Assembly: GCA_030427885.1 (NCBI GenBank)
Contig: JAUICM010000004.1
Coordinates: 310,001 to 374,000, forward strand
Reading direction: 5' to 3'
From: Rhodothermia bacterium
GTDB taxonomy: Bacteria > Bacteroidota > Rhodothermia > Balneolales > Balneolaceae
Length of the DNA stretch: 64,000 nucleotides
Under the pieces are notes generated by a model that was not told the origin of the DNA, ran no database searches, and saw only the letters and a program-made list of their open reading frames with translations. Positions 24,965 to 55,662 of this stretch are shown piece by piece; within the stretch, counting starts at the first letter, position 1; each line of letters starts with the position of its first letter. The position numbers were made by a program, and so were the translations under genes.

Positions 24965-26347
24965 TCAGAACTCTGGCTTAAGGATAAAAAGCCCATCCCG
25001 AATATCACTAACAACAATCACTCCGCTTTCGAAGAACGGGTAACTGCTCCAGGTTCCGTTGAAGGAAACTTCCTGCTGATCAGGATTAGTAGGTTGAGTA
25101 TCAAAATAAGCCATGAGTGACATATCTGCTTCAGACAGGTCGTTGATCTTTAATACACGCAACCCGGAAGTATAATTTGTTTGATAGACCTTGTTGTTCT
25201 TCACGTACAGATTATGATCAATAGAGGCTGTTCCCTGAGAATAGTAGCCCACAAAAGTTGGGTTTTCGAGATCAGACACATCCCAAACATACGTTTGAGT
25301 TCCACGCCCAATGTATAGTTCGTCCAGTTCATCATCCATAAGGAAGTATTTCTGGTCTTCAGTTAGCCAACCCTGATGCGAGTATCGGAATTCCGGATGG
25401 GCTTTGTAACCAATAGTTGTTGGGTTCGATTTATCAGTTACATCTGAAATTACTATGGTACCCTCAGCGGAGCTGAAACAGAGTTCTTTACCCGCATGTT
25501 CAGTGTCGGGGCCAGTGTAATCAACACATTGGGCATCATGAACATAACCCACACCGGCAGAATATCCATTATCGCCTTCAGTTTCAGGGTCGAAATAGCA
25601 ACCAGCAAAAGTAGGATTCAGCGGGTTTCTGATATCAATGATATGAAGTCCTGTTTCGCTTCTGCTGCCACAAATCTCAGCGCTGGTAACCCCAACGGCA
25701 TAAGCAAACCCGGAATTCTCGTTGATTACAATATTATGGGCATTATCTAAACGATCATAATGCGCATCATGAGTGAATTCCAGATAATCACCATCAAAAT
25801 CACGCAGGTGGGTCAGATCAAAGACCTGCATTCCATGCACCTGTCCGTCGCTTACCACAAACATATGGTTATTGTAAACTTTCATATCTCTCCAGGTAGA
25901 ACCTTCAGTGATTGCTTTAGCTTGCTGGCTGTCTCCAATACCTACAACACAAGCCGGAAAATCTTCAGGGCTAGTAAAAACTGTCTTTTGAGAATTGGAA
26001 GCTGACTCCAATAGTTTTCCTACAACAACAGGATTGTTGGGATCAGAAATATCTACAAAGCTAACACCATCATTGAGTCCAACTAAGGCGTATTCAGTTC
26101 CTGTCTGAGGATCGGTCCAACCCCAGATGTCATTTGCAGCAGCACCGCCTAACTCTTCAGCTGTGATATGAGCGTATAAACTAACTTTCTCGCAATCGTA
26201 TTTTCCTGCTGATTTACCATCTTCGCAAGGAAAGTTAGCTTCGGGAAGATTATTTGGGCTCGTTGGAGAATCTTTACATGCGGTAAGAAAGAGAACTGAA
26301 GAAAAGACCAGAAGTAATGAAAAGCGTGTCATCTTGAATGTATTCAT
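24965..26347 (-). CDS. choice-of-anchor B family lipoprotein (copy 1)
   Basis: 460 residues from ATG 26347, which gives a lipoprotein signal (MTRFSLLLVFSSVLFLTACK, lipobox LTAC). The mature protein has LVIVD-type beta-propeller blades: DIWGWTDPQTGTEYALVGLN, GVSFVDISDPNNP, HIIDIRNPLNPTFAGCYF and VWDVSDLENPTFVGYYS. This is the choice-of-anchor B domain found in large secreted proteins of Bacteroidota and others; the function is unknown and metal binding is possible from HDAH and SHQG motifs. Upstream in-frame codons would extend into the neighbouring gene and lack a signal. It is a tandem duplicate of the next gene on the same strand. Confidence 0.88.
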   Translation of the reverse strand: MNTFKMTRFSLLLVFSSVLFLTACKDSPTSPNNLPEANFPCEDGKSAGKYDCEKVSLYAHITAEELGGAAANDIWGWTDPQTGTEYALVGLNDGVSFVDISDPNNPVVVGKLLESASNSQKTVFTSPEDFPACVVGIGDSQQAKAITEGSTWRDMKVYNNHMFVVSDGQVHGMQVFDLTHLRDFDGDYLEFTHDAHYDRLDNAHNIVINENSGFAYAVGVTSAEICGSRSETGLHIIDIRNPLNPTFAGCYFDPETEGDNGYSAGVGYVHDAQCVDYTGPDTEHAGKELCFSSAEGTIVISDVTDKSNPTTIGYKAHPEFRYSHQGWLTEDQKYFLMDDELDELYIGRGTQTYVWDVSDLENPTFVGYYSQGTASIDHNLYVKNNKVYQTNYTSGLRVLKINDLSEADMSLMAYFDTQPTNPDQQEVSFNGTWSSYPFFESGVIVVSDIRDGLFILKPEF

Positions 26348-26396
26348 AATAATTTGACCTGTACTTATTTTAATAACGCATAGTAATGTATTTCTA

Positions 26397-27815
26397 TTAT
26401 TGAGGAAAGTCCGGTTTAAGTATATATAAGCCTTTTTCAATATCTGTTATCAGAATGATCCCGCTTTCAAAGAAAGGATAGTTACTCCAGGATCCATAAA
26501 ACCCAGCCTCTTCCTGAGTCTCACCATCAGGTTTGGAATCAAAGTAACCAAGCGGACTTAATTGGGCATTACCCAAATCAGAAAGGCTGAACATTCGTAG
26601 TCCAGAATTATAATTAGACATGTAAACTATATTTCCTTTTACGTATAGGTTATGGTCAATGGATTCAGTGGCGTGGATGAATGAATCAATAAAAAATGGG
26701 TTGTCGAGATCAGATACATCAAAAATATGAGTACGGGTATTACGGCCAAGATTGTACTCGTCCAACTCATCATTCATGATGAAATACTTTTGGTCTTCTG
26801 TTAGCCAGCCCTGATGGCTGTACTGAACATTGGGATGGCTGCCAAATCCTAAGGTGATCACACTGTCTTTATCAGTAACATCAGTTATGATCATAGAACG
26901 TTCAGCTGCATTAAAACAAATTTCCCGACCATTATGATCAGCATCGGGACCGGTATAGATCACACACTGTGCATCATGAATGTAAGCAGAATTCTCGTAT
27001 CTGCGGGGCGCGGAAGTATCATCATAGCAACCAGCAAAAGTAGGATTCTCAGGATCTCTGATATCGATCATATGCAGGCCGCCCGAATTACAATCTCCTT
27101 CACCATTGGTTCCGGTTGTATTGGTAGCGCCAACAGCATAGGCAAATCCTGAGGATTCATTAATTACAATGTTATGTGCGTTAGCGATATTTTTATAAAC
27201 GGCATCCTCAGTGAAGTTAATTGGCTCATCATCAAATGTTCTCAATCTGGTCAGGTCAAAAACCTGCATACCATGAGCCTGAGCATCACTTACCACATAC
27301 ATATGGTTGTTATACACTTTGATATCTCTCCAGATCGTGCCCTCCATTCCGGTGGTTTTCTGCTTGTTGGTTCCAATACCGATCATGCAGGTTTCAAAAT
27401 CCGGATCGTTGGTCATTTTAAAATTCTTAAGCTTGCTCTCAGCCAGTCTTCCAACATAGACAGGATCATAAGGATCAGAAAGATCTACGAAGGCAACACC
27501 ATCCACCAATCCAACAAGAGCATACTCGGTGCCAGTATCAGGGTCAGTCCATCCCCAGAGGTCATTAAATTTAACCCCATCAATAGAATTCGAGACATTC
27601 ATTTTTCCAGGATATACATATGACACGAGGTCAATACCTTCACAAGGGTAGTAGTCATTGATCAGCCCTCGGTCACACTTTATCAGGCGGTCTTCAGGTG
27701 TGGTGGGAACTAATTCCTCGGTGTCGTCCTCAATAATGGGTGGATCAGAGGGTGTATCTTTGCAAGACCAGTTTACTAAAAGCAAAATGGAAAGCAGTAT
27801 ATAAGTTGATTTCAT
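26397..27815 (-). CDS. choice-of-anchor B family lipoprotein (copy 2)
   Basis: 472 residues from ATG 27815 (MKSTYILLSILLLVNWSCKD), a type II signal peptide with an unusual lipobox NWSC. The body follows copy 1 blade by blade: DLWGWTDPDTGTEYALVGLV, GVAFVDLSDPYDPVYVGRL, MQVFDLTRLRTF, GLHMIDIRDPENPTFAGCY and YSHQGWLTEDQKYF. The pair clearly arose by tandem duplication. It lies upstream of copy 1 with a 49-nt gap and no terminator, so the two are probably one transcript. It is expected on the outer or inner membrane facing the periplasm or outside. Confidence 0.88.
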   Translation of the reverse strand: MKSTYILLSILLLVNWSCKDTPSDPPIIEDDTEELVPTTPEDRLIKCDRGLINDYYPCEGIDLVSYVYPGKMNVSNSIDGVKFNDLWGWTDPDTGTEYALVGLVDGVAFVDLSDPYDPVYVGRLAESKLKNFKMTNDPDFETCMIGIGTNKQKTTGMEGTIWRDIKVYNNHMYVVSDAQAHGMQVFDLTRLRTFDDEPINFTEDAVYKNIANAHNIVINESSGFAYAVGATNTTGTNGEGDCNSGGLHMIDIRDPENPTFAGCYDDTSAPRRYENSAYIHDAQCVIYTGPDADHNGREICFNAAERSMIITDVTDKDSVITLGFGSHPNVQYSHQGWLTEDQKYFIMNDELDEYNLGRNTRTHIFDVSDLDNPFFIDSFIHATESIDHNLYVKGNIVYMSNYNSGLRMFSLSDLGNAQLSPLGYFDSKPDGETQEEAGFYGSWSNYPFFESGIILITDIEKGLYILKPDFPQ

Positions 27816-27992
27816 AACCGGGACTCTTGTGAACAGAAACAGTAATAATTTTTTGTAAATAGTTCGGTAAGTATACAACAAGTTCTCAGAAAATATATTC
27901 TGAATTTATTTAAACAATGCTATCTAAGGTGGTATCTAAGCGAATTTATAAGTATTTACTGGCATATATTTTTGATCTGAAATTCGATCGAT

Positions 27993-28518: not shown

Positions 28519-30369
28519 ATGAGAATTAAGGGAATTATTTTTCTAGTGATTATAGCAGGTCTTGGTTTTGCAGCCACTTACTTTATTACGGATGAGTTTA
28601 TTGAAGAAAAGATTGAGTATCAGGCAAGTGTGATAAATGAAGCTAAAGTTGAGATAGATGGATTTGAATTCGATCTCTTTAGCTTGAAAGTTGGCTGGGA
28701 CCGTCTTCAGGTTGCAAATCCTAAGAATACAATGACCAATACATTTGAAACAGGTCGTACCGAATTTAATGTGGACTTCTGGCCCCTGCTTTGGAATAAA
28801 GTGATCGTTGAAAATGTACAAATGACTGGCTTTGAGCTCGAAACGGAACGGGAAACAGACGGTTATTTTGAGATGCCGGTAGATGAGGAAGGCGAAGAAG
28901 AACCCGGAATATTTGCTGAAGTTACCAAACAGGTTGGGGGTGAGATCTCAAAAAATGCGCAAATGAAGTTTACGGCTGTTAAAGATGATATTAATGTAGA
29001 TAGCCTGATGGCAATGGTAGACCTTCAATCCATTGATAAAATGGATTCTCTTAAAAATGGCCTGACTGACAATTACTCAAAATGGGATAGTACCATTAAT
29101 AACAATACCATCATTAGTGATGTGAATAAGATGCGTACAACGCTACAGGCTTTGAATGTAAATGAGATGAAGGATCCTAAGAAGGCAATAGAAGCTCTGA
29201 AAGATATTCAGGGAATGGTAAAAAAAGCCGATTCATTGAAGAAGTCTGTAGTAAACCTGAAAGAGAATTTCACCAGTGACCTGACTGCCTCCAGAAACAG
29301 TCTTGAAAGTATTCCATCATGGGTCCGTGAAGATATCGACAGGGCATCCGGTATTGCTAAATTGCCTGAAATAAATGCTCAAAGTATCGGAACAGCGTTG
29401 TTCGGTTCAAACCTGCTTGGGGATTTCAACAGGTATATGGGATATTTGGGTACGGCCAGAGAATATGGAGCACGACTCAAAGGACCGGAAGATGAGGAAG
29501 AAGAAATAGAGCGGTTTGCAGGGAAGAATTACGAATTTTCTGATAAGTACGACTGGCCGGCATTCTGGGTGAAAAAGATTGAACTTTCTGGTGTCACAAA
29601 AAATGATATAGATCTGCGTGGATTGGTTACGGATGTAAGTAGTGACCAGAACAAAACAGGTAAACCACTTTTGATAGAAATGGGTGGCGCAGATGCGAAC
29701 AATACAAGTTTGAATATCAATGCGGAGATCAATTATCTGGAAGAAAAACCAAGAGAATCTGTTAAGGTAACCTATGCCGGTTTCCCGCTAAAGAATTCAA
29801 GGATTTCACCGTCAGAACTTATTCCCTATGAGCTGAACTCCGGAACAGGAGAATTAAGTCTGGGAGTTGATGTGATCGGAAAGCGTTTTGATAGCGAGAT
29901 CAAGTATCTGGCCTCCAATATCAGTTTTGATTTCAATTCAGCCGGAAAGCCAAAAAATCAGATCGAATCATTGATCAGGACAGCAATTTCCAGCGCCGAC
30001 GATATAAATGCCACGGCATTGGTGGATAATACAACGGGGCCTTTAAGAGTCCGGGTGCGTTCGAATATTGATGATATGTTTCTGAATACACTGAAAAGTA
30101 CTATCTCAAGAGAGGTTGAGAATGCAAAACGTAAGATCCGCAATGAGGTAGAGAGTAGAGTAAATGCCAAAAAACGGGAAGTTGAACAGCTCGTGAAACA
30201 GAAGGAAGCGCAACTACGAGCTGAATACGACAAGTTTGAGAAAAAGGTGAATGACCAGCTTCAAATTGTGGAAGAGAAAAAGAAGGAACTCGAAAAGAAG
30301 AAGAAAGAACTGGAAGATTCAATCAAGAATAAAGCCGTTGACACGATCCGAGATAAGATCGGGTTCTAA
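28519..30369 (+). CDS. TIGR03545 family protein
   Basis: A 616-residue protein anchored by one N-terminal helix (GIIFLVIIAGLGFAATYFIT) and otherwise periplasmic, related in layout to AsmA-like proteins: a beta-rich start (VEIDGFEFDLFSLKVGWDRL), a helical middle (160-320) and a second beta-rich part. It ends in a long charged coiled coil (about 530-610) rich in K and E. The neighbour is its standard TIGR03546 partner. The role is unknown; lipid transport or envelope assembly is suggested by AsmA-like regions. Its stop overlaps the convergent operon's last stop by 4 bp, so neither transcript has a terminator hairpin there. Confidence 0.9.
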   Translation: MRIKGIIFLVIIAGLGFAATYFITDEFIEEKIEYQASVINEAKVEIDGFEFDLFSLKVGWDRLQVANPKNTMTNTFETGRTEFNVDFWPLLWNKVIVENVQMTGFELETERETDGYFEMPVDEEGEEEPGIFAEVTKQVGGEISKNAQMKFTAVKDDINVDSLMAMVDLQSIDKMDSLKNGLTDNYSKWDSTINNNTIISDVNKMRTTLQALNVNEMKDPKKAIEALKDIQGMVKKADSLKKSVVNLKENFTSDLTASRNSLESIPSWVREDIDRASGIAKLPEINAQSIGTALFGSNLLGDFNRYMGYLGTAREYGARLKGPEDEEEEIERFAGKNYEFSDKYDWPAFWVKKIELSGVTKNDIDLRGLVTDVSSDQNKTGKPLLIEMGGADANNTSLNINAEINYLEEKPRESVKVTYAGFPLKNSRISPSELIPYELNSGTGELSLGVDVIGKRFDSEIKYLASNISFDFNSAGKPKNQIESLIRTAISSADDINATALVDNTTGPLRVRVRSNIDDMFLNTLKSTISREVENAKRKIRNEVESRVNAKKREVEQLVKQKEAQLRAEYDKFEKKVNDQLQIVEEKKKELEKKKKELEDSIKNKAVDTIRDKIGF

Positions 30370-32033
30370 AGATTAGAATCAGCTAGGTATTCATGTACAT
30401 ATTTGATGCTCATGGCTCCTTCACCTACAGCTGAGGCCACCCGATTCATAGCACCGGCACGCACGTCACCTGCCGCAAAAATCCCAGGTGAACAGGTCTC
30501 AAGAAGGTAGGGAGTACGTTCCAGTTTCCAGGTTTTTGGGTAGTCTTCATATTTACTGAGTTCCTTGCCGGTTTCAATAAATCCTTTAGGGTTTTTGATC
30601 ACGCTGTTATGAACCCAGTCAGTATAAGGCCGGGCACCAATGAATATAAACAGTCCATCAGCCTCAACATCTCGGAAGTTCTCAGATTCATGATCTTTCA
30701 ACACCAGTTTTTGTAAACGTCCGTTGCCACAGGCTTCCTCAACAAGGGTATTACCCAGCACCTGGATATTGTCCGTTTTATTAATTTGTTCAATCAGGTA
30801 GTGCGACATAGTTGCTACCAGATCTTTCCGGCGTATCACAATAGATACATTTTTGGCGAACGTCGACAGATACATGGCAGCTTGTCCGGCAGAGTTTCCG
30901 CCCCCGACCACGTACACTTCTTTATCTTTAAAGGCATGAGCTTCTGTCATGGCAGCACCATAATAGATTCCCGCTCCGGTGAAGTCGGAAATTCCTTTGC
31001 TATCCAGTTTCCGGTAGTTCACGCCAGTGGTTACAATTACTGCTTTGGAATTCACCGAGCTTCCATCCGACATCCGGATCGTTTTATACTGATCTTCAAC
31101 ATCGATGCCAACCACCTCCATGGGTGAAAGAAACTCAACTCCAAAACGTGTTGCCTGAGTTATAGCTCTTCGGGCCAGATCAGATCCGCTCAATCCATTC
31201 GGGAAACCCAGATAATTTTCAATTCGGGAGCTGGTTCCAGCTTGCCCGCCGGGTGCTCTTCGTTCCACAAGTAAGGTCTTCAAGCCTTCTGAGCCTCCAT
31301 AAACGGCTGCCGCTAATCCTGCCGGTCCGGCGCCAATGATCACCACATCGTAAATAGTTTCAGAAGCGGTAGGGCCTTTACCCAGTTTATCAGCGATCTG
31401 GATTGGGGCAGGATCTTTGATATAACTGCCATCATCAAAAAAGATCACAGGAAGATCGCCGGTCTCCAGTGAATTGGTTTCAAGAAGTTCAGCTGCTTTT
31501 TCGTTACCCTCGATGTCAAGCCAGCGATATGGGATCAGGTTGCCCGATAGGTAATCTTTGATCGTATGAGACTTGGGCGAGTATTGATATCCCACGAGGT
31601 GTATACCGTGGAACTCAGGCTTAAAGTTAGCCTGCCATTCTTCTAACAGATCATTAAGGACCGGAAAAAGTTTTTCTTCGGGAGGATCCCAGGGCTTCAA
31701 CAGATAATAATCGAGTTGGACCTCATTGATCGCTTTAATCGCAGCTTCTGTGTCAGAATAAGCAGTAAGAAGTACCCGCTTGGCATCAGGAAAGAGTTTC
31801 TTTGCCTGTTCAAGGAAATCGACACCGATCATTTCGGGCATTCGCTGATCAGACAGAAACAGTGCGACTGATTCCCCTTGTTTTTTGAGTTCAGGTAAGG
31901 TCTCTAATGCTTCTTTAGCTGAGTTTGTACTCAGAATACGAAACTCGCTTCTGTACTGAGACCGGAGATCACGTGTAACAGCACGAAGTACCTGGGGGTC
32001 ATCATCAATAGCGAAGAGTATTGGTTTCTTCAT
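30366..32033 (-). CDS. response regulator fused to a thioredoxin-reductase-like flavoprotein
   Basis: A 555-residue fusion. Residues 1-125 are a full receiver domain (D10-D12, phosphoacceptor D62 in LSDQRMP, T90, K113 in LLKPW). Residues 140-215 look like a glutaredoxin-type thiol fold without CxxC. From about 228 comes a TrxR-like flavoprotein: VVIIGAGPAGLAAAVYGG for FAD, VVGGGNSAGQAAMYL for NAD(P)H and FAAGDVRAGA. The redox pair CxxC of true TrxR (CATCDG) is replaced by the IYYGAAMTEAHAF segment, so it is probably an NAD(P)H-dependent flavoprotein that does not reduce thioredoxin. It follows the kinase gene by 12 nt, so phosphorylation by that kinase is likely. The fusion occurs elsewhere, but its role is not known to me. 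Confidence 0.93.
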   Translation of the reverse strand: MKKPILFAIDDDPQVLRAVTRDLRSQYRSEFRILSTNSAKEALETLPELKKQGESVALFLSDQRMPEMIGVDFLEQAKKLFPDAKRVLLTAYSDTEAAIKAINEVQLDYYLLKPWDPPEEKLFPVLNDLLEEWQANFKPEFHGIHLVGYQYSPKSHTIKDYLSGNLIPYRWLDIEGNEKAAELLETNSLETGDLPVIFFDDGSYIKDPAPIQIADKLGKGPTASETIYDVVIIGAGPAGLAAAVYGGSEGLKTLLVERRAPGGQAGTSSRIENYLGFPNGLSGSDLARRAITQATRFGVEFLSPMEVVGIDVEDQYKTIRMSDGSSVNSKAVIVTTGVNYRKLDSKGISDFTGAGIYYGAAMTEAHAFKDKEVYVVGGGNSAGQAAMYLSTFAKNVSIVIRRKDLVATMSHYLIEQINKTDNIQVLGNTLVEEACGNGRLQKLVLKDHESENFRDVEADGLFIFIGARPYTDWVHNSVIKNPKGFIETGKELSKYEDYPKTWKLERTPYLLETCSPGIFAAGDVRAGAMNRVASAVGEGAMSIKYVHEYLADSNL

Positions 32034-32045
32034 ACCTGAACAATG

Positions 32046-33428
32046 TTAAATTGGGAATGTTAATTGAAAAACGGTGTCTCCGGGTTTTGAGGACACATCA
32101 ATAGTACCATCGTGTTTTTCAATGATCTTACGAACAACATCAAGTCCAAGTCCGGTGCCGGAACCTACATCTTTTGTGGTGAAAAAGGGATCAAAAATTC
32201 TATTCTTAATATCATCGGGAATTCCCTTGCCATTATCCCGGAAAAAGAGCTGGATAGAATCGTTGGTACTTTTGGCACTGATCTCGATACTTCCGCCTTC
32301 ATCAACAGCATCGATAGCGTTATCCAATAAGTTGGTCCAAACTTGATTGAGTTCTCCAACATACCCGCAGAGTTCCGGTAGTTGTTCCGGGATATTCATA
32401 GAGATCTCAACCTGCTTCGATTTCGATTTATGGTTAAGCATGGTGATTGTACTTTTAACCATTTTACGAAGTTCGACAGCTTCCTTGTCAGTGCCACGAT
32501 CCATATGTGAATAGGTTTTCACCGCAGAAACCAGCTCAGATATCCTTCGGGCTGAATCTTCAATTTCTTCCACCATTTTTTCAGTAGTGAGCACGTCCTC
32601 TATCCAGCCAAGAACAACATGAAGTGAATCGCCGCTGATGGATTTAATATGTTCGAAATCCTCGGTTGTAAAACAATATTCAGCAAAAGTCTCTGCCAAC
32701 TCAAAGCCATTTTCGATAGAATTGTCTTCCATCCAGTCTGCCAGCTCATCTTCCAAAGCAGTACGTTGCATCAAGGGTTGATTGTTCGTGCTGCCCTTTC
32801 CGGCCTTCCTAAATACGATTTTATTGATCGAATCAACTTGTTCGTTTGTAAGCCTGAGATTTATAATCGCCTTGAACTTCTCAGGCTTTGCTTTGAGGTT
32901 CGATCGCAGAGCCGCAGCATTGCTTACCATTGCAGAAGCAGGATTGTTTAATTCATGGGAAAGTCCAGCTGATAATTTTCCGAGTGCAACAAGCTTTTCA
33001 TTCTGATTCTGACGGGTAGTATAACTCCGGATACGGTCTGACAAAGCGTGAACAAAGACTTCGATAAGTTGGTATCGATTTGCCATTTCGGGGAAAACCC
33101 GTTCATGAGTGCGAACAACTAACAATTCCTCTACCACGGTTAGATACGCAAGGGGAGATTGTAATCTTGAGAACGGAATTTTACCTGTGATATCACCTTT
33201 TTCGAGCCTTCCAAGATCAGCAAATTTATTACCGCTCTTAAGCTGAAGTCGTACAGAACCCTCCAATATGATGAGCACCTCACGAATGTCATCACCGGGT
33301 CTGAAGAGTATCTCATCTGCATCATAGCTTCTGACATCTGAGTTTTCAACCAACCATTCCAGCTGTTCCTCAGGAACCTCAGCAAAGACTGGAATATCTT
33401 TTAATTTTGAAATGACCTGATTCGTCAT
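32046..33428 (-). CDS. cyclic-nucleotide-binding-domain histidine kinase
   Basis: A 460-residue soluble sensor kinase. An N-terminal CRP-like CNBD (about 10-125; LFRPGDDIREVLIILEGSVR, GRLEKGDITGK) is followed by a HisKA-type segment with the phosphoacceptor H158 in GLSHELNNP. The C-terminal HATPase has N box NLLDNAIDAV, G1 DNGKGIPDD and G2 GTGLGLDVV. The CNBD lacks the usual GExxL and RxA phosphate-binding residues, so cyclic nucleotide binding is doubtful. There is no membrane helix. It overlaps the zinc-finger gene by ATGA and is directly before the REC fusion, forming a two-component pair. Confidence 0.93.
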   Translation of the reverse strand: MTNQVISKLKDIPVFAEVPEEQLEWLVENSDVRSYDADEILFRPGDDIREVLIILEGSVRLQLKSGNKFADLGRLEKGDITGKIPFSRLQSPLAYLTVVEELLVVRTHERVFPEMANRYQLIEVFVHALSDRIRSYTTRQNQNEKLVALGKLSAGLSHELNNPASAMVSNAAALRSNLKAKPEKFKAIINLRLTNEQVDSINKIVFRKAGKGSTNNQPLMQRTALEDELADWMEDNSIENGFELAETFAEYCFTTEDFEHIKSISGDSLHVVLGWIEDVLTTEKMVEEIEDSARRISELVSAVKTYSHMDRGTDKEAVELRKMVKSTITMLNHKSKSKQVEISMNIPEQLPELCGYVGELNQVWTNLLDNAIDAVDEGGSIEISAKSTNDSIQLFFRDNGKGIPDDIKNRIFDPFFTTKDVGSGTGLGLDVVRKIIEKHDGTIDVSSKPGDTVFQLTFPI

Positions 33429-33688
33429 GCCTCAATGTATTTATTATCAATATAACAAAATGCCCATGACTCCCCGGGCTCTGCAGAACGAATAACCGGG
33501 TGTTCGTTTCTTAAATAATGTTTGCGTGCATGTTTGTTTTTTGATGAATCGCAGCATCCGATATAACCACAAGTCATACACATCCTGAGGTGTACCCAGG
33601 AATCACCTCTTTCAACACAATCTGAACATTCCACAACACCGGCTTCTGGTTCAGTAATTGTGATCATATGTTGGTGTTCGCATGACAT
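33425..33688 (-). CDS. UBP-type (ZnF-UBP) zinc-finger protein
   Basis: An 87-residue protein that is one complete ZnF-UBP domain: CEHQH at the start, VECSDC, SWVHLRMCMTCGYIGCCDSS, the histidine pair in KHARKHYLRNEHP and an aromatic end WAFCYID. In eukaryotes this domain binds the C-terminal Gly-Gly of ubiquitin; bacteria lack ubiquitin, so the ligand here is unknown. It overlaps the kinase gene by 4 nt and starts 2 nt after the antiporter stop. Its tight link to a sensor kinase and flavoprotein suggests it is a regulator or adaptor of that pair; this is inference. Confidence 0.92.
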   Translation of the reverse strand: MSCEHQHMITITEPEAGVVECSDCVERGDSWVHLRMCMTCGYIGCCDSSKNKHARKHYLRNEHPVIRSAEPGESWAFCYIDNKYIEA

Positions 33689-33690
33689 AA

Positions 33691-35259
33691 CTATTTAGCA
33701 TAATCAATTACAAGACTTTTAGATCCAATATACTCGCTGCTTATACTGAGCTCGGCAAGCTTTCGGCCCGCCTGCTTCATTGGCAAACAAACAGAATTAG
33801 CCCCTGCACTGGTAAGAGCCTCCTGCTCTTCATCCCGCATAGTAAGGGCATAAATATCTTTCTTGAATTTATTTTCCCTCAACATCTTCGTGGCTTCTAT
33901 TTTGGCTGTTGTATTCGAAGTAGCAAGCATGATCGCTTCAACTCCTTTCAGGTCCAGGTTTTGCCATAGTTCCGGGTCAGTGATGTCGCCGTATACCACT
34001 CGTCGCTTTTCTTTTAGATTACGTTCTATTCTTGCAGGGTCAATATCCATACCTGTTACTCTCAGATCACGCTCTTTCAGATAATCGTATGCTGCAGCCC
34101 CGGCCTGACCCATTCCAACGATCAGGTAATGTGCACCCCCAAGTGAAACCACAGTCTGACCGGGATGTTTTACATCGCGCTCAAAAGGGATGAGTTTGAA
34201 TTCAAACGCATTCCACAGCTGATCCCGTTTCGATGAAAGAGGAGCATTAAGGGCATAGGAGACTGAAGTCAGGATCGCAAAGACTATGACTATGGATTCC
34301 GGAATAAAACCTGAGGCAGCTGCAACAGAACCGGCAATAAGTGTAAACTCACTATATGAAGTGAGTGTAGTTGTTACGGTGAATGAATTTCTCGATCTGA
34401 GTTTGAAGCCAATAAGCAGGAAGAAATAAAGGATCGACTTTATTGGTAGTATCAATAGAATGATTCCTGCAAAAACGAGATCCCCCATACTTGGCCAGCC
34501 CTGAAGCCCTACTTCAAGGAAAAAGCCAACCAGAAAGGCTTCTTTTAACCCCCAAAGTTTTTTACCCAGTTCGTCAGCTTGTTCATGGCCTGAAACCAGG
34601 GCACCTGCAACCAGGGCACCTAATTCTGATGAAAGGCCCAATTCTCCGAACAGAGTCCCCAGACCGATAGCCATTATCAAACCATACAACAACTGAAGTT
34701 CATCATGTCCACTGGCTACCAGCAGTTTGATTAGGAGAGGCCTTATCAATGGTAGTGCTAATAACCCCAAAGACCAGATGGATGGGATTCCGCCGCCGGT
34801 CAGGGCCAGAATGCCAATGGCAACAAGGTCCTGCAGGATGAGGATACCAATTGATACCCTGGCATGAAATGCACCCAGCTCTCCACGGCTTTCCAGCGCT
34901 TTGGCTGCGATCACTGTGCTTGAGAAACTAAGAAGCAGCCCGATAATAATGGAGGGAATGAGGGCGTACCCAAAAAGTATAGCTATTCCCGTAAATATTG
35001 CGGTGCTTATGATTAGATGTATGCCGCCGGCACCAAGTACCTCAGGCCGGAAAATACTTTTAAAACGGAGGTGCAGGCCAACAGTAAAAAGAAGAAGTAA
35101 AACTCCAATATGCCCAATTTCATGCAGTATTTCCCCGCCCTCAACGCCAAATGCATATAACGCTATTCCGGCACCTAAATATCCGATGAGAGGAGGAAGG
35201 CGGAACGCCTGTAAAACCATGCCGAGAACATAGGCCAGAGCAAGCCAGAGTATTTCCAT
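33691..35259 (-). CDS. Kef-type cation/proton antiporter (CPA2) with RCK/TrkA-N domain
   Basis: A 522-residue protein. The first 385 residues form 11-12 membrane helices of the CPA2 type (YLGAGIALYAFGVEGG, LLLFTVGLHLRFKS, FSSTVIAAKALESRGELG, GALVAGALVSGHEQ). The C terminus has one Rossmann RCK-N domain (YLIVGMGQAGAAAYDYL, VTGMDIDPARIERN, RVVYGDITDPELW, ALTMRDEEQEALTSAGANSV). This matches KefB/KefC and YbaL-type potassium efflux systems. In E. coli, KefB/C open on binding glutathione adducts of electrophiles. It has no KefF/G-type oxidoreductase subunit beside it, but flavoprotein and quinone genes are in the operon. The ion transported is inferred. Confidence 0.9.
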   Translation of the reverse strand: MEILWLALAYVLGMVLQAFRLPPLIGYLGAGIALYAFGVEGGEILHEIGHIGVLLLLFTVGLHLRFKSIFRPEVLGAGGIHLIISTAIFTGIAILFGYALIPSIIIGLLLSFSSTVIAAKALESRGELGAFHARVSIGILILQDLVAIGILALTGGGIPSIWSLGLLALPLIRPLLIKLLVASGHDELQLLYGLIMAIGLGTLFGELGLSSELGALVAGALVSGHEQADELGKKLWGLKEAFLVGFFLEVGLQGWPSMGDLVFAGIILLILPIKSILYFFLLIGFKLRSRNSFTVTTTLTSYSEFTLIAGSVAAASGFIPESIVIVFAILTSVSYALNAPLSSKRDQLWNAFEFKLIPFERDVKHPGQTVVSLGGAHYLIVGMGQAGAAAYDYLKERDLRVTGMDIDPARIERNLKEKRRVVYGDITDPELWQNLDLKGVEAIMLATSNTTAKIEATKMLRENKFKKDIYALTMRDEEQEALTSAGANSVCLPMKQAGRKLAELSISSEYIGSKSLVIDYAK

Positions 35260-35266
35260 GTACTAT

Positions 35267-35938
35267 TTAAGCTTTGAGGTTGATCAACTCCTGAATATGC
35301 TTAATCTCGTCTTCGTTGACAAGGTGTCCCATTCCCGGATAGATGTTTTTTTGAACGGACGCACCCAGCTTGTTAAATACTTTAACGGATTCGTTAATTC
35401 GCTGCTCCGGAATATGAGGATCTATATCGCTGCAACCCATAAAAACGGGTGTCCCTTTCATATCACCGTTATATTTGGATAACTCAACACTATCTCCGAT
35501 CACACCACCGCTCAGAGCAATAATACCGGCATATTTTGCCGGGTGTCTTGCGGCGAATTCACTTGCAAGGCAGGCTCCCTGAGAAAATCCCAGCAGAAAA
35601 ATTTTATCGGAAGAGAAACCTTTAGATTGTACACCTGATATCAGATCATAAATAGCCTGAAGCCCGGAATTCAACCCCGGCTGGTTTTGATCGGTAGGAG
35701 AAAGAAATGAGTAAGGATACCATGTATTGTTAGCTGCCTGAGGAGCCAGAAAAGTGATCTCATCTACATTATCTAACTCACCGGCAAGCCCCAGTATGCT
35801 TTGAGCAGAGGCACCACGACCATGAATCATAATCATCACAGCTTTGGCTGCTGAAAGATCTGCTCCCGCATGAACAATATTCTGCCCCTGATGCGGTCCC
35901 TTAAAATTTGTGTGTTCGTCAATTCGTAAAAAATCCAT
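35267..35938 (-). CDS. mhqD: MhqD-like carboxylesterase/phospholipase (alpha/beta hydrolase)
   Basis: A 223-residue alpha/beta hydrolase with an intact triad: Ser in LGFSQGACLA, Asp in GCSDIDPHIP and His in PGMGHLVNEDE. The oxyanion loop is IMIHGRGASA. Size and motifs match the Abhydrolase_2 carboxylesterase group to which MhqD belongs. In Bacillus, mhqD is paired with the mhqO ring-cleaving dioxygenase and induced by quinones, and the same gene order is found here with a 3-nt gap. The likely role is hydrolysis of quinone-derived or lipid esters in the cytoplasm. The symbol is given by family and context. Confidence 0.85.
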   Translation of the reverse strand: MDFLRIDEHTNFKGPHQGQNIVHAGADLSAAKAVMIMIHGRGASAQSILGLAGELDNVDEITFLAPQAANNTWYPYSFLSPTDQNQPGLNSGLQAIYDLISGVQSKGFSSDKIFLLGFSQGACLASEFAARHPAKYAGIIALSGGVIGDSVELSKYNGDMKGTPVFMGCSDIDPHIPEQRINESVKVFNKLGASVQKNIYPGMGHLVNEDEIKHIQELINLKA

Positions 35939-35941
35939 GAT

Positions 35942-36871
35942 TTATATTTCCAGTGATGGTAATGTCTGTTCAATAAGTGTACGCCTTGGTTCTAGCCATG
36001 GTGGAAGGATGAGTTTTTCACCCAAATGCTCAAAATCCTCATCCACAGCATAGCCCGGATCATCCGATGCCATTTCAAACAAAACGCCACCCGGTTCACG
36101 GTAGTACACTGATTTAAACCAGTGTCGATCGATGATGCCAGTAGGGTTTAGTCCTTTGCTAAGAACATGTTCCCTTAATTGCCCGAGTTCTTCCTCATTC
36201 TCAGCACGGAATGCGACATGGTGAACAATACCCCTTCCACCCCTTCCGTGTTCTTCATCAGCCGTTTCTATAATTAATGAACCGCCAATGTTGGCATCTG
36301 TTTCAAAGAGAGTAAGATTACCATTTGAACTCTTTTCTTCAAATCCGAGAATATTGGTTAGAATATCAACCGTTCCATCGGCTTCAGAAAGCCTGAGACG
36401 GGTGGACTCGAACCCCTGTATTGAATATTCTAACGGAACGGTGCTTTCATAGCTGCTAATTTTTGACTTTGCTTCTCCATCAAAAATAAGGTCTAGTTCC
36501 AAACCGTCAGGGTCTTCAAACCTAATGGCCTGTTTTCCGAATATCTCAAAAGGTTCTGAGCAGGAAATATCCTCATAGGCAAGCCGCTCGATCCAGAAAT
36601 CCTGAGATCCTTCCGGTACTTTGAAGGCCACATTCACAGATTCGCCCGTGCCTTTAGTTCCTTTGTGCGCTCGTGGCCATGGAAAGAAAGTAAGGCTTGA
36701 ACCAGGAGTTGCGGCTTCATTTCCATAGAAAAGATGATAGGTACCCGGATCGTCCTGGTTAACAGATTTCTTAACCATTCTCATGCCCAGCTTGTTCACA
36801 TAAAAATTGTGGTTAACTTTTGGGTCACCAGCCAGTACGCTGATATGATGAATTCCTTTATTGTGTTTCAT
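35942..36871 (-). CDS. mhqO: MhqO-like ring-cleaving dioxygenase (VOC family)
   Basis: A 309-residue protein of two vicinal-oxygen-chelate modules. It opens HNKGIHHISVLAGDPKVNHN with FYVNKLGMRMVKKSVNQDDP. The second module has GRGIVHHVAFRAENEEELGQ. The end YYREPGGVLFEMASDDPGYA carries the metal Glu. This layout is that of MhqO/MhqA/YkcA-type proteins that give resistance to hydroquinones and catechols. It is the first gene of the six-gene minus-strand operon, with a good ribosome site GGAG 6 nt before ATG. A perfect palindrome lies 35 nt upstream. Confidence 0.9.
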   Translation of the reverse strand: MKHNKGIHHISVLAGDPKVNHNFYVNKLGMRMVKKSVNQDDPGTYHLFYGNEAATPGSSLTFFPWPRAHKGTKGTGESVNVAFKVPEGSQDFWIERLAYEDISCSEPFEIFGKQAIRFEDPDGLELDLIFDGEAKSKISSYESTVPLEYSIQGFESTRLRLSEADGTVDILTNILGFEEKSSNGNLTLFETDANIGGSLIIETADEEHGRGGRGIVHHVAFRAENEEELGQLREHVLSKGLNPTGIIDRHWFKSVYYREPGGVLFEMASDDPGYAVDEDFEHLGEKLILPPWLEPRRTLIEQTLPSLEI

Positions 36872-37449: not shown

Positions 37450-37938
37450 ATGGCTACTGACCCGCGAATACAAGATGTTCTCGAATTGCTGGATCCTCCT
37501 AAGGGATTTCAACCCTGGCATGGAGGTCCCACCTTGTTTGGTTGTCTGAGGGGAGTATCTGCAGAGGAGGCTAGCTGGAAACCTACACCGGAAAGAAACT
37601 CGATCTGGGATCTGGTTCTGCATATGGCTTATTGGAAATACTCGATCATCAGACAATTAAACCCGGATTTTAAAAAAGGGTTTGAAAGAAGTCCCGCAAA
37701 TTTCCCAGATCATGGAAATACTGATCAGGAGTGGGAATCCGATAAAGCTCTTCTGAAATTAAAGCAGCAGCAATTGGTGGACGAGATCAGATCTTTTCCG
37801 GCTTCAAAACTGGATCAGCCGTCGACTACTAAAAAGAAATGGACCTATGCTCAGTTGATCAGCGGAATTGCTGTACATGATCATTATCATATCGCTCAGA
37901 TCCAGCTTTTGAGAAGATTTCACTCCGAAATGACATAA
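37450..37938 (+). CDS. DinB-family protein
   Basis: A 162-residue four-helix protein with the DinB/YfiT metal site: His in LVLHMAYWKYS near residue 57 and the HxxxH pair in VHDHYHIAQIQLL near 143-148. The N-terminal half has PWHGGPTLFGCLRGVSAEEA and WKPTPERNSIWDL, typical of DinB_2 proteins. Members bind Ni, Zn or Fe and include bacillithiol and mycothiol S-transferases, so a thiol-transferase role is possible but not shown. Its stop overlaps the start of the following protease gene (TAATG). Confidence 0.85.
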   Translation: MATDPRIQDVLELLDPPKGFQPWHGGPTLFGCLRGVSAEEASWKPTPERNSIWDLVLHMAYWKYSIIRQLNPDFKKGFERSPANFPDHGNTDQEWESDKALLKLKQQQLVDEIRSFPASKLDQPSTTKKKWTYAQLISGIAVHDHYHIAQIQLLRRFHSEMT

Positions 37939-54522: not shown

Positions 54523-55662
54523 ATGAATATTGGAATTGTTTGTTACCCTACATTTGGCGGAAGTGGTGTTGTAGCAACTGAGCTGGCGAAAGTACTGGCA
54601 AATAAAGGTCATAAAGTTCACATTTTAAGCTATTCGCGTCCGGCCCGTTTAGAAACCTCTGCTAATATTTCCTATCACGAGGTGTCGATCAATTCCTATC
54701 CATTGTTTGACTATCCGCCTTACGCCCTGGCATTAGCGTCCCAGATGGTAAATCTGATCGAGTATGAAAACCTGGATCTTCTGCATGTGCATTACGCATT
54801 ACCACATGCTACCAGTGCATACCTTGCAAAGCAGATCATGATAGAAAAGGGAAAAACTGTTCCTATTGTCACCACCCTTCACGGGACTGATATCACACTG
54901 GTAGGTAAAGACCCAAGTTATAAACACGTAGTTGAGTTTTCGATCGATAAGAGTGACGGGGTTACAGCGGTGTCTGAATATCTGAAAAAGGAGACCTACA
55001 AGAACTTTGATCTCAAGAAGGACATTAAGGTGATCCCAAACTTTATTGATTTGGAGCGGTTCAAAAAATCCAATAAGAGTCACTTCAAGAAAGCTATTTG
55101 TCCAAACGGAGAAAAAGTGGTGGTGCACGTTTCAAATTTCCGAAAAGTGAAAAGAGTACCTGAAGTTATAACGGTGTTTGCGAAGATCCTTGAGCATGGT
55201 ATTGAGGCCAAGTTATTGTTGGCCGGTGACGGCCCAGATCGACAGAAGGCTGAGCAGCAATGTCGGGAGATGGGTATCTGCGAACATGTTCGGTTCCTGG
55301 GTAAACTGGATGAAGTAGAAGAGATACTATCCATCGCAGATCTGTTCCTTATCCCATCCGGTTCAGAGACCTTTGGTCTGGCAGCCCTTGAAGCAATGAG
55401 TTGTTCGGTACCTGTTATCAGTTCTGATATTGGTGGTCTGCCAGAAGTTAATGTGGAAGGAGTAACGGGTTACCTGTGTGATCTCGACGATACCGAGTGT
55501 ATGGCCAAACATGCGGTTAATATTCTTTCCGATGAAAAACTTCATAAACGTCTTTCTAAAAATGCACGAAAGAGGGCAGAGAAATTCAATCAGGAAACTA
55601 TAGTGAAGATGTACGAAGACTTCTACAAAGAAGTCAATGAAAAAGTACTGCAACCAGGCTGA
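54523..55662 (+). CDS. bshA: N-acetyl-alpha-D-glucosaminyl L-malate synthase BshA
   Basis: A 379-residue GT4 glycosyltransferase that joins UDP-GlcNAc to L-malate in the first step of bacillithiol synthesis. BshA-specific motifs are clear: MNIGIVCYPTFGGSGVVATE at the start, VHYALPHATSAYLAKQI, TTLHGTDITLVGKDPSYK and SNFRKVKRVPEV; the donor-site end SGSETFGLAALEAMSCSVPV is typical. Cytoplasmic. A ribosome site AAGGAG precedes ATG. BshB and BshC genes are not in the window. It indicates that this organism uses bacillithiol as its thiol. Confidence 0.95.
   Translation: MNIGIVCYPTFGGSGVVATELAKVLANKGHKVHILSYSRPARLETSANISYHEVSINSYPLFDYPPYALALASQMVNLIEYENLDLLHVHYALPHATSAYLAKQIMIEKGKTVPIVTTLHGTDITLVGKDPSYKHVVEFSIDKSDGVTAVSEYLKKETYKNFDLKKDIKVIPNFIDLERFKKSNKSHFKKAICPNGEKVVVHVSNFRKVKRVPEVITVFAKILEHGIEAKLLLAGDGPDRQKAEQQCREMGICEHVRFLGKLDEVEEILSIADLFLIPSGSETFGLAALEAMSCSVPVISSDIGGLPEVNVEGVTGYLCDLDDTECMAKHAVNILSDEKLHKRLSKNARKRAEKFNQETIVKMYEDFYKEVNEKVLQPG

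Follow-up and report, generated by a model that had tools for sequence, protein, structure and literature searches.

Among described systems, the closest to the locus reported here are KefFC and KefGB of E. coli, which share with it a CPA2 antiporter carrying an RCK domain, the conserved Ser/Thr/Gln-Asp residues of the K+ site, and a flavoprotein encoded in the antiporter operon with a link to quinones. In E. coli, Kef acidifies the cytosol under electrophile stress, and its KefF subunit is a quinone reductase required for full KefC activity, with zinc coordinated at the KefC-KefF interface; the glutathione/GSX ligands of KefC have been listed in the same work (PMC10224563). The MhqR regulon of Bacillus and Staphylococcus (mhqNOP, mhqED, mhqRED) has in common with our locus an adjoining dioxygenase and alpha/beta hydrolase pair, and enzymes of the MhqO class act on quinone-S-adducts (PMC6798810). 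A Kef-type antiporter in a further stress locus has been shown to help cells survive chlorine under alkaline conditions (PMC8067161); in the passages compared, that locus is described with neither mhq genes nor a REC-flavoprotein.

The operon described here lies in the window, that is, the whole stretch of 64,000 nucleotides of Balneolaceae DNA that was analyzed. Relative to KefFC and KefGB, it adds a histidine kinase and a UBP zinc finger, and its flavoprotein is thioredoxin reductase (TrxR)-like with a receiver (REC) domain, whereas KefF is flavodoxin-like. Unlike the MhqR regulon, it ties the enzyme pair to an antiporter and a phosphorelay, has no identified MhqR-like repressor, and encodes a hydrolase that falls below the MhqD cut-off. 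Our literature searches returned no paper that joins a UBP finger, a TrxR-like protein and a kinase.

Organization of the operon

The six minus-strand genes that an earlier note had proposed as an operon were all confirmed as open reading frames between positions 36871 and 30366, separated by 3, 7, 2, -4 and 12 nt. Scans for a promoter and a terminator of the operon gave nothing clearly above shuffled sequences. The spacing can be wider in relatives, reaching 170 nt between the kinase and REC-flavoprotein genes and 2.7 kb between mhqD and the antiporter gene, so internal promoters are possible. Upstream and divergent from the operon is a DinB_2-family gene (37450-37938), a possible bacillithiol-transferase relative, which was considered as a member of the module and dropped because no homolog was found next to the cluster in those Balneolaceae loci that were checked. 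Elsewhere in the window, two related proteins, each about 490 aa long, are encoded in tandem at 24965-27881, and their longest readings slightly overlap.

Quinone enzymes and antiporter

The first gene (35942-36871, minus strand) encodes an MhqO/CatE-type ring-cleaving dioxygenase, as judged by its two VOC modules with conserved His/His/Glu (Pfam Glyoxalase, 65.6 bits, in two stretches). Residues H8, H9, H217, H218 and E266 are invariant in 32 homologs, and relatives at 41-44% carry a ring-cleaving dioxygenase annotation. The second product (35267-35938, minus strand) is an alpha/beta hydrolase (Pfam Abhydrolase_2, 86 bits) in which S119, D173 and H205 are invariant in 31/31 sequences; the earlier name MhqD is too specific for it, the NCBIfam equivalog NF047577 being reached with only 27.6 of 325 bits, and we refer to it as mhqD-like.

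The antiporter (33691-35259, minus strand) combines Pfam Na_H_Exchanger with a single RCK domain (TrkA_N) and is best described as a Kef/YbaL-like K+/H+-type protein of the CPA2 family that is neither KefB nor KefC, since it scores 112 versus 804 bits against the NCBIfam KefB equivalog and 104 versus 752 against that of KefC, and also remains below the YbaL cut-off. All four K+-site residues of KefC (S125, T127, Q155 and D156) are identical in the alignment. By contrast with KefC, to which it is 25% identical, it lacks both the C-terminal extension and the glutathione ligands: at Q412, R416, R498, D499, R516 and N551 it has A, D, M, R, L and a gap, respectively. It is therefore unlikely that a thiol adduct gates this protein in the manner of KefC, as the earlier note had implied.

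UBP zinc finger

The fourth gene (33425-33688, minus strand) encodes a stand-alone zf-UBP zinc finger of 87 aa (Pfam zf-UBP, 52.6 bits), the sole zf-UBP of its genome, with 2IDA as a solved relative (E 2.9e-23). In eukaryotic zf-UBP domains, the arginine of the CGR motif grips the C-terminus of ubiquitin. The homology extends to eukaryotic USP16 and the Cys/His pattern is kept, which would accord with the finger belonging to a ubiquitin-like modification or tail-recognition system that acts on the antiporter. We nevertheless consider such a role extremely unlikely, since the position of the CGR arginine is occupied by aspartate (CCDSS) in every one of the 39 bacterial sequences and no conjugation genes were seen near the UBP gene.

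Kinase and REC-flavoprotein

The fifth gene (32046-33428, minus strand) encodes a soluble histidine kinase with an N-terminal domain of the cNMP-binding fold (CNBD; Pfam cNMP_binding, HisKA and HATPase_c), whose phospho-accepting histidine H158 is invariant in 22/22 sequences. Its CNBD carries an invariant G-P-S-R pattern (G82, P85, S87 and R88) that differs from the usual cNMP-binding cassette, and the ligand may consequently not be a cyclic nucleotide.

The last product (30366-32033, minus strand) joins a REC domain, a linker and a TrxR-like FAD/NAD(P)H domain (Pfam Response_reg and Pyr_redox_2). In the REC domain, the phosphoacceptor D62 is invariant in eight sequences together with T90 and K113. 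The linker (residues 140-220) may adopt a glutaredoxin-like fold, as judged by motif resemblance, and is cysteine-free, with SPKSH at the position of the glutaredoxin CxxC. In the TrxR-like part, the FAD and NAD(P)H motifs GGQAGTSSRIENYLGFP and GGGNSAGQAA are conserved, while the score against TIGR01292 is 243 bits (cut-off 343). Alignment to TrxR structures and a motif table over homologs place AAMT, AALT or a similar sequence at the redox-active CxxC site in all homologs checked, whose representatives span five phyla (Bacteroidota, Cyanobacteriota, Pseudomonadota, Actinomycetota and Gemmatimonadota). The linker likewise lacks the glutaredoxin CxxC in these homologs. Without the CxxC of TrxR, the protein cannot be an ordinary disulfide reductase. 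An AlphaFold2 model of the REC-flavoprotein, built from a shallow set of eight Balneolaceae sequences, reached a pLDDT of 51.

A related arrangement occurs in Rhizobium and Rhodococcus, where a CNBD is fused directly to the TrxR-like protein and a UBP gene adjoins it. What these pairs share with the window is a zf-UBP gene accompanied by a TrxR-like module that lacks CxxC, but they carry the CNBD on the flavoprotein, whereas in the window the CNBD is on the kinase and the REC domain on the flavoprotein. From these domain arrangements we infer that one input domain, the CNBD, may be wired to the flavoprotein either directly or through a phosphorelay. On a plasmid of Rhodococcus pyridinivorans, the pair lies in a chaperone operon with the genes dnaK, grpE, a J-domain gene, cbpM, clpB, trxA, UBP, CNBD-TrxR and DUF1931 (locus L068).

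Conservation within Balneolaceae

Among 58 genomes of the family, the dioxygenase is present in 51, the antiporter in 37, zf-UBP in 16 and the REC-flavoprotein in 16, and wherever the last of these occurs the antiporter accompanies it. Adding two genomes from larger samples gives a set of 18, in all of which the antiporter adjoins a full-length REC-flavoprotein (17 on one contig, with G035 split between contigs). The mhqO-mhqD pair stands beside the antiporter in 15 of these 18, whereas L027, L033 and L048 have no mhq genes next to the cluster. Gene order is kept across several Balneolaceae genera, which argues that the operon is more than a chance arrangement. In most relatives, an additional DsbA/Thioredoxin_4 protein with a CPYS motif, which the window lacks, is encoded between the antiporter and UBP genes; in L089 and L090 the CPYS protein is present and the UBP gene is absent.

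Antiporter loci without the trio of UBP finger, kinase and REC-flavoprotein were also found, and mhqO or mhqD still adjoins the antiporter in 13 of the 18 that were fetched; in five of these loci, the protein encoded after the antiporter is another member of the DsbA family, this one with CGWC. In L079 and L080, mhqO-like genes are tandemly duplicated upstream of mhqD and the antiporter. Of the single electrophile unit that had been proposed, the linkage of its two halves holds in 18/18 Balneolaceae genomes with a REC-flavoprotein, and their inseparability does not: the Balneolaceae gene set is a real unit, built from separable sub-modules. The electrophile and quinone theme itself is strengthened, because the slot beside the antiporter repeatedly holds thiol-fold proteins, namely the DsbA-like proteins with CPYS or CGWC or, in the loci described below, a fused glutaredoxin.

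Distribution in other families and phyla

Linkage extends beyond the family. In other Rhodothermia families, the REC-flavoprotein and kinase genes lie on either side of, or next to, an antiporter from another CPA2 lineage, 24-31% identical to that of the window, in 10 of 17 genomes (L034, L035, L037, L105, L107, L108, L109, L110, L111 and L114). The same six parts form one operon in L111, in another order and all in one direction: REC-flavoprotein, mhqO, mhqD, an antiporter-RCK-UBP fusion and the CNBD kinase, with gaps of 5, -4, 20 and 22. Within this second lineage, UBP finger and antiporter form a single polypeptide in L034-L037, L111 and L114 and are encoded by neighbouring genes in L109 and L110. 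The antiporters of L105 and L109 end in a glutaredoxin domain according to Pfam, and those of L107 and L108 resemble them at the C-terminus. Deinococcus plasmids (L058 and L073) carry a UBP-antiporter fusion about 50% identical to the Rhodothermia fusions, and in L113 and L115 the REC-flavoprotein gene is followed by an mhqO homolog. The parts have thus been repeatedly re-assembled with a second antiporter lineage, and function is the best explanation for their rejoining in varied orders, with another antiporter and as domain fusions.

The kinase and REC-flavoprotein are usually found alone in Bacteroidia, where no homolog of either antiporter lies within about five genes of 25 REC-flavoprotein loci, and a cyanobacterial plasmid likewise carries only this pair. 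The trio is consequently not a fixed unit, contrary to what had been proposed, and it is also broken in L089 and L090 by the missing UBP gene. The Bacteroidia loci further indicate that the original job of the kinase and REC-flavoprotein was not antiporter control alone. Together with the 13 trio-less loci in which mhqO or mhqD adjoins the antiporter, these loci are what one would see if two modules shared one transcript, mhqO-mhqD-antiporter serving the electrophile response and the kinase and REC-flavoprotein (with UBP) acting as a general signalling pair for redox or NAD(P)H state, co-expressed under the same stress and not touching the antiporter. We regard this separation as possible but doubtful, given that UBP is fused directly to antiporters in two phyla, that glutaredoxin is fused to the antiporter as well, and that the antiporter gene lies between those of the REC-flavoprotein and the kinase in L105, L107, L109, L110, L111 and L114.

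In Bacteroidota outside Rhodothermia, the REC-flavoprotein is enriched among genomes with zf-UBP (6/9; rough Fisher p of 1e-5 to 1e-4, with the sample size approximated and phylogeny ignored). Matches in a genome contig scan with a single-protein query were confined to Balneolaceae/Balneolales, plus one Gemmatimonadetes match to the REC domain without the TrxR part; no zf-UBP was found among 64 genomes of the phylum of that genome. A long open frame across the Gemmatirosa zf-UBP was considered as a fusion and rejected as a high-GC artefact, and a scan of viral contigs found no relatives.

Proposed function

Our preferred reading, held with about even confidence, is that all six genes belong to a single module responding to quinones and other compounds that react with thiols, with a Kef-like antiporter gated by its partners. 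The dioxygenase and hydrolase would remove quinones, and the antiporter would release K+ in exchange for H+, which would lower the cytosolic pH and make thiolates less reactive, as with Kef in E. coli. Gating would come from partners on the RCK side, namely the UBP finger, the DsbA/Grx-type protein where present and the REC-flavoprotein, rather than from glutathione adducts. The CNBD kinase would phosphorylate the REC domain of the flavoprotein, which most likely serves as a docking partner under the control of phosphorylation and NAD(P)H, as it has neither a DNA-binding nor a disulfide output. It may also act as a quinone reductase, and its role would resemble that of KefF, the flavoprotein that reduces quinones as a subunit of KefC. 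We favour such a protein-gated module over glutathione gating on the strength of the action of MhqO-class enzymes on quinone-S-adducts, Kef acidification, quinone reduction by KefF and the genes resembling those of ergothioneine biosynthesis in L041 described below.

The kept K+ site and the absent glutathione gating residues would also suit K+ or pH homeostasis, in which the kinase and flavoprotein relay energy or NAD(P)H status and adjust antiport to it, the mhq enzymes being unrelated aromatic-degrading passengers. That the mhq genes are missing beside L027, L033 and L048, and that a Paenibacillus mhqO operon can serve lignin-dimer degradation (PMC12673573), points the same way. We judge this account unlikely, because mhqO or mhqD adjoins the antiporter both with and without the trio and stands beside the REC-flavoprotein in another family (L111, L113 and L115), and because thiol-fold partners recur.

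The partner-gated module resembles the "electrophile alarm" of E. coli KefC and appears to be a new bacterial form of it. If true, it would explain how Kef-type electrophile protection is gated in bacteria without glutathione, and it would provide a first function both for the widespread bacterial zf-UBP proteins and for the TrxR-like proteins without CxxC, which annotation pipelines label as thioredoxin reductases. More tentatively, the cysteine-less TrxR-like flavoprotein could be a direct, phosphorylation-controlled subunit of a K+/H+ antiporter, with UBP as a ubiquitin-independent adaptor, replacing glutathione sensing in bacillithiol users. A two-component system would then act directly on transport, its output being an ion transporter and not a gene.

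Low-molecular-weight thiols

The window also contains bshA of bacillithiol biosynthesis (54523-55662, plus strand; TIGR03999, 556 bits, cut-off 273.7), which had been taken as a pointer to bacillithiol as the thiol of the system. The gene was confirmed and the cell probably makes bacillithiol, but bshA shows only that, lying about 18 kb away and outside the operon. In L041 (7336-13301), the UBP, REC-flavoprotein and kinase genes adjoin those for an EgtD-like histidine-specific methyltransferase and an EgtB-like DinB-FGE-sulfatase protein, a neighbourhood that suggests a link to ergothioneine, another low-molecular-weight thiol.
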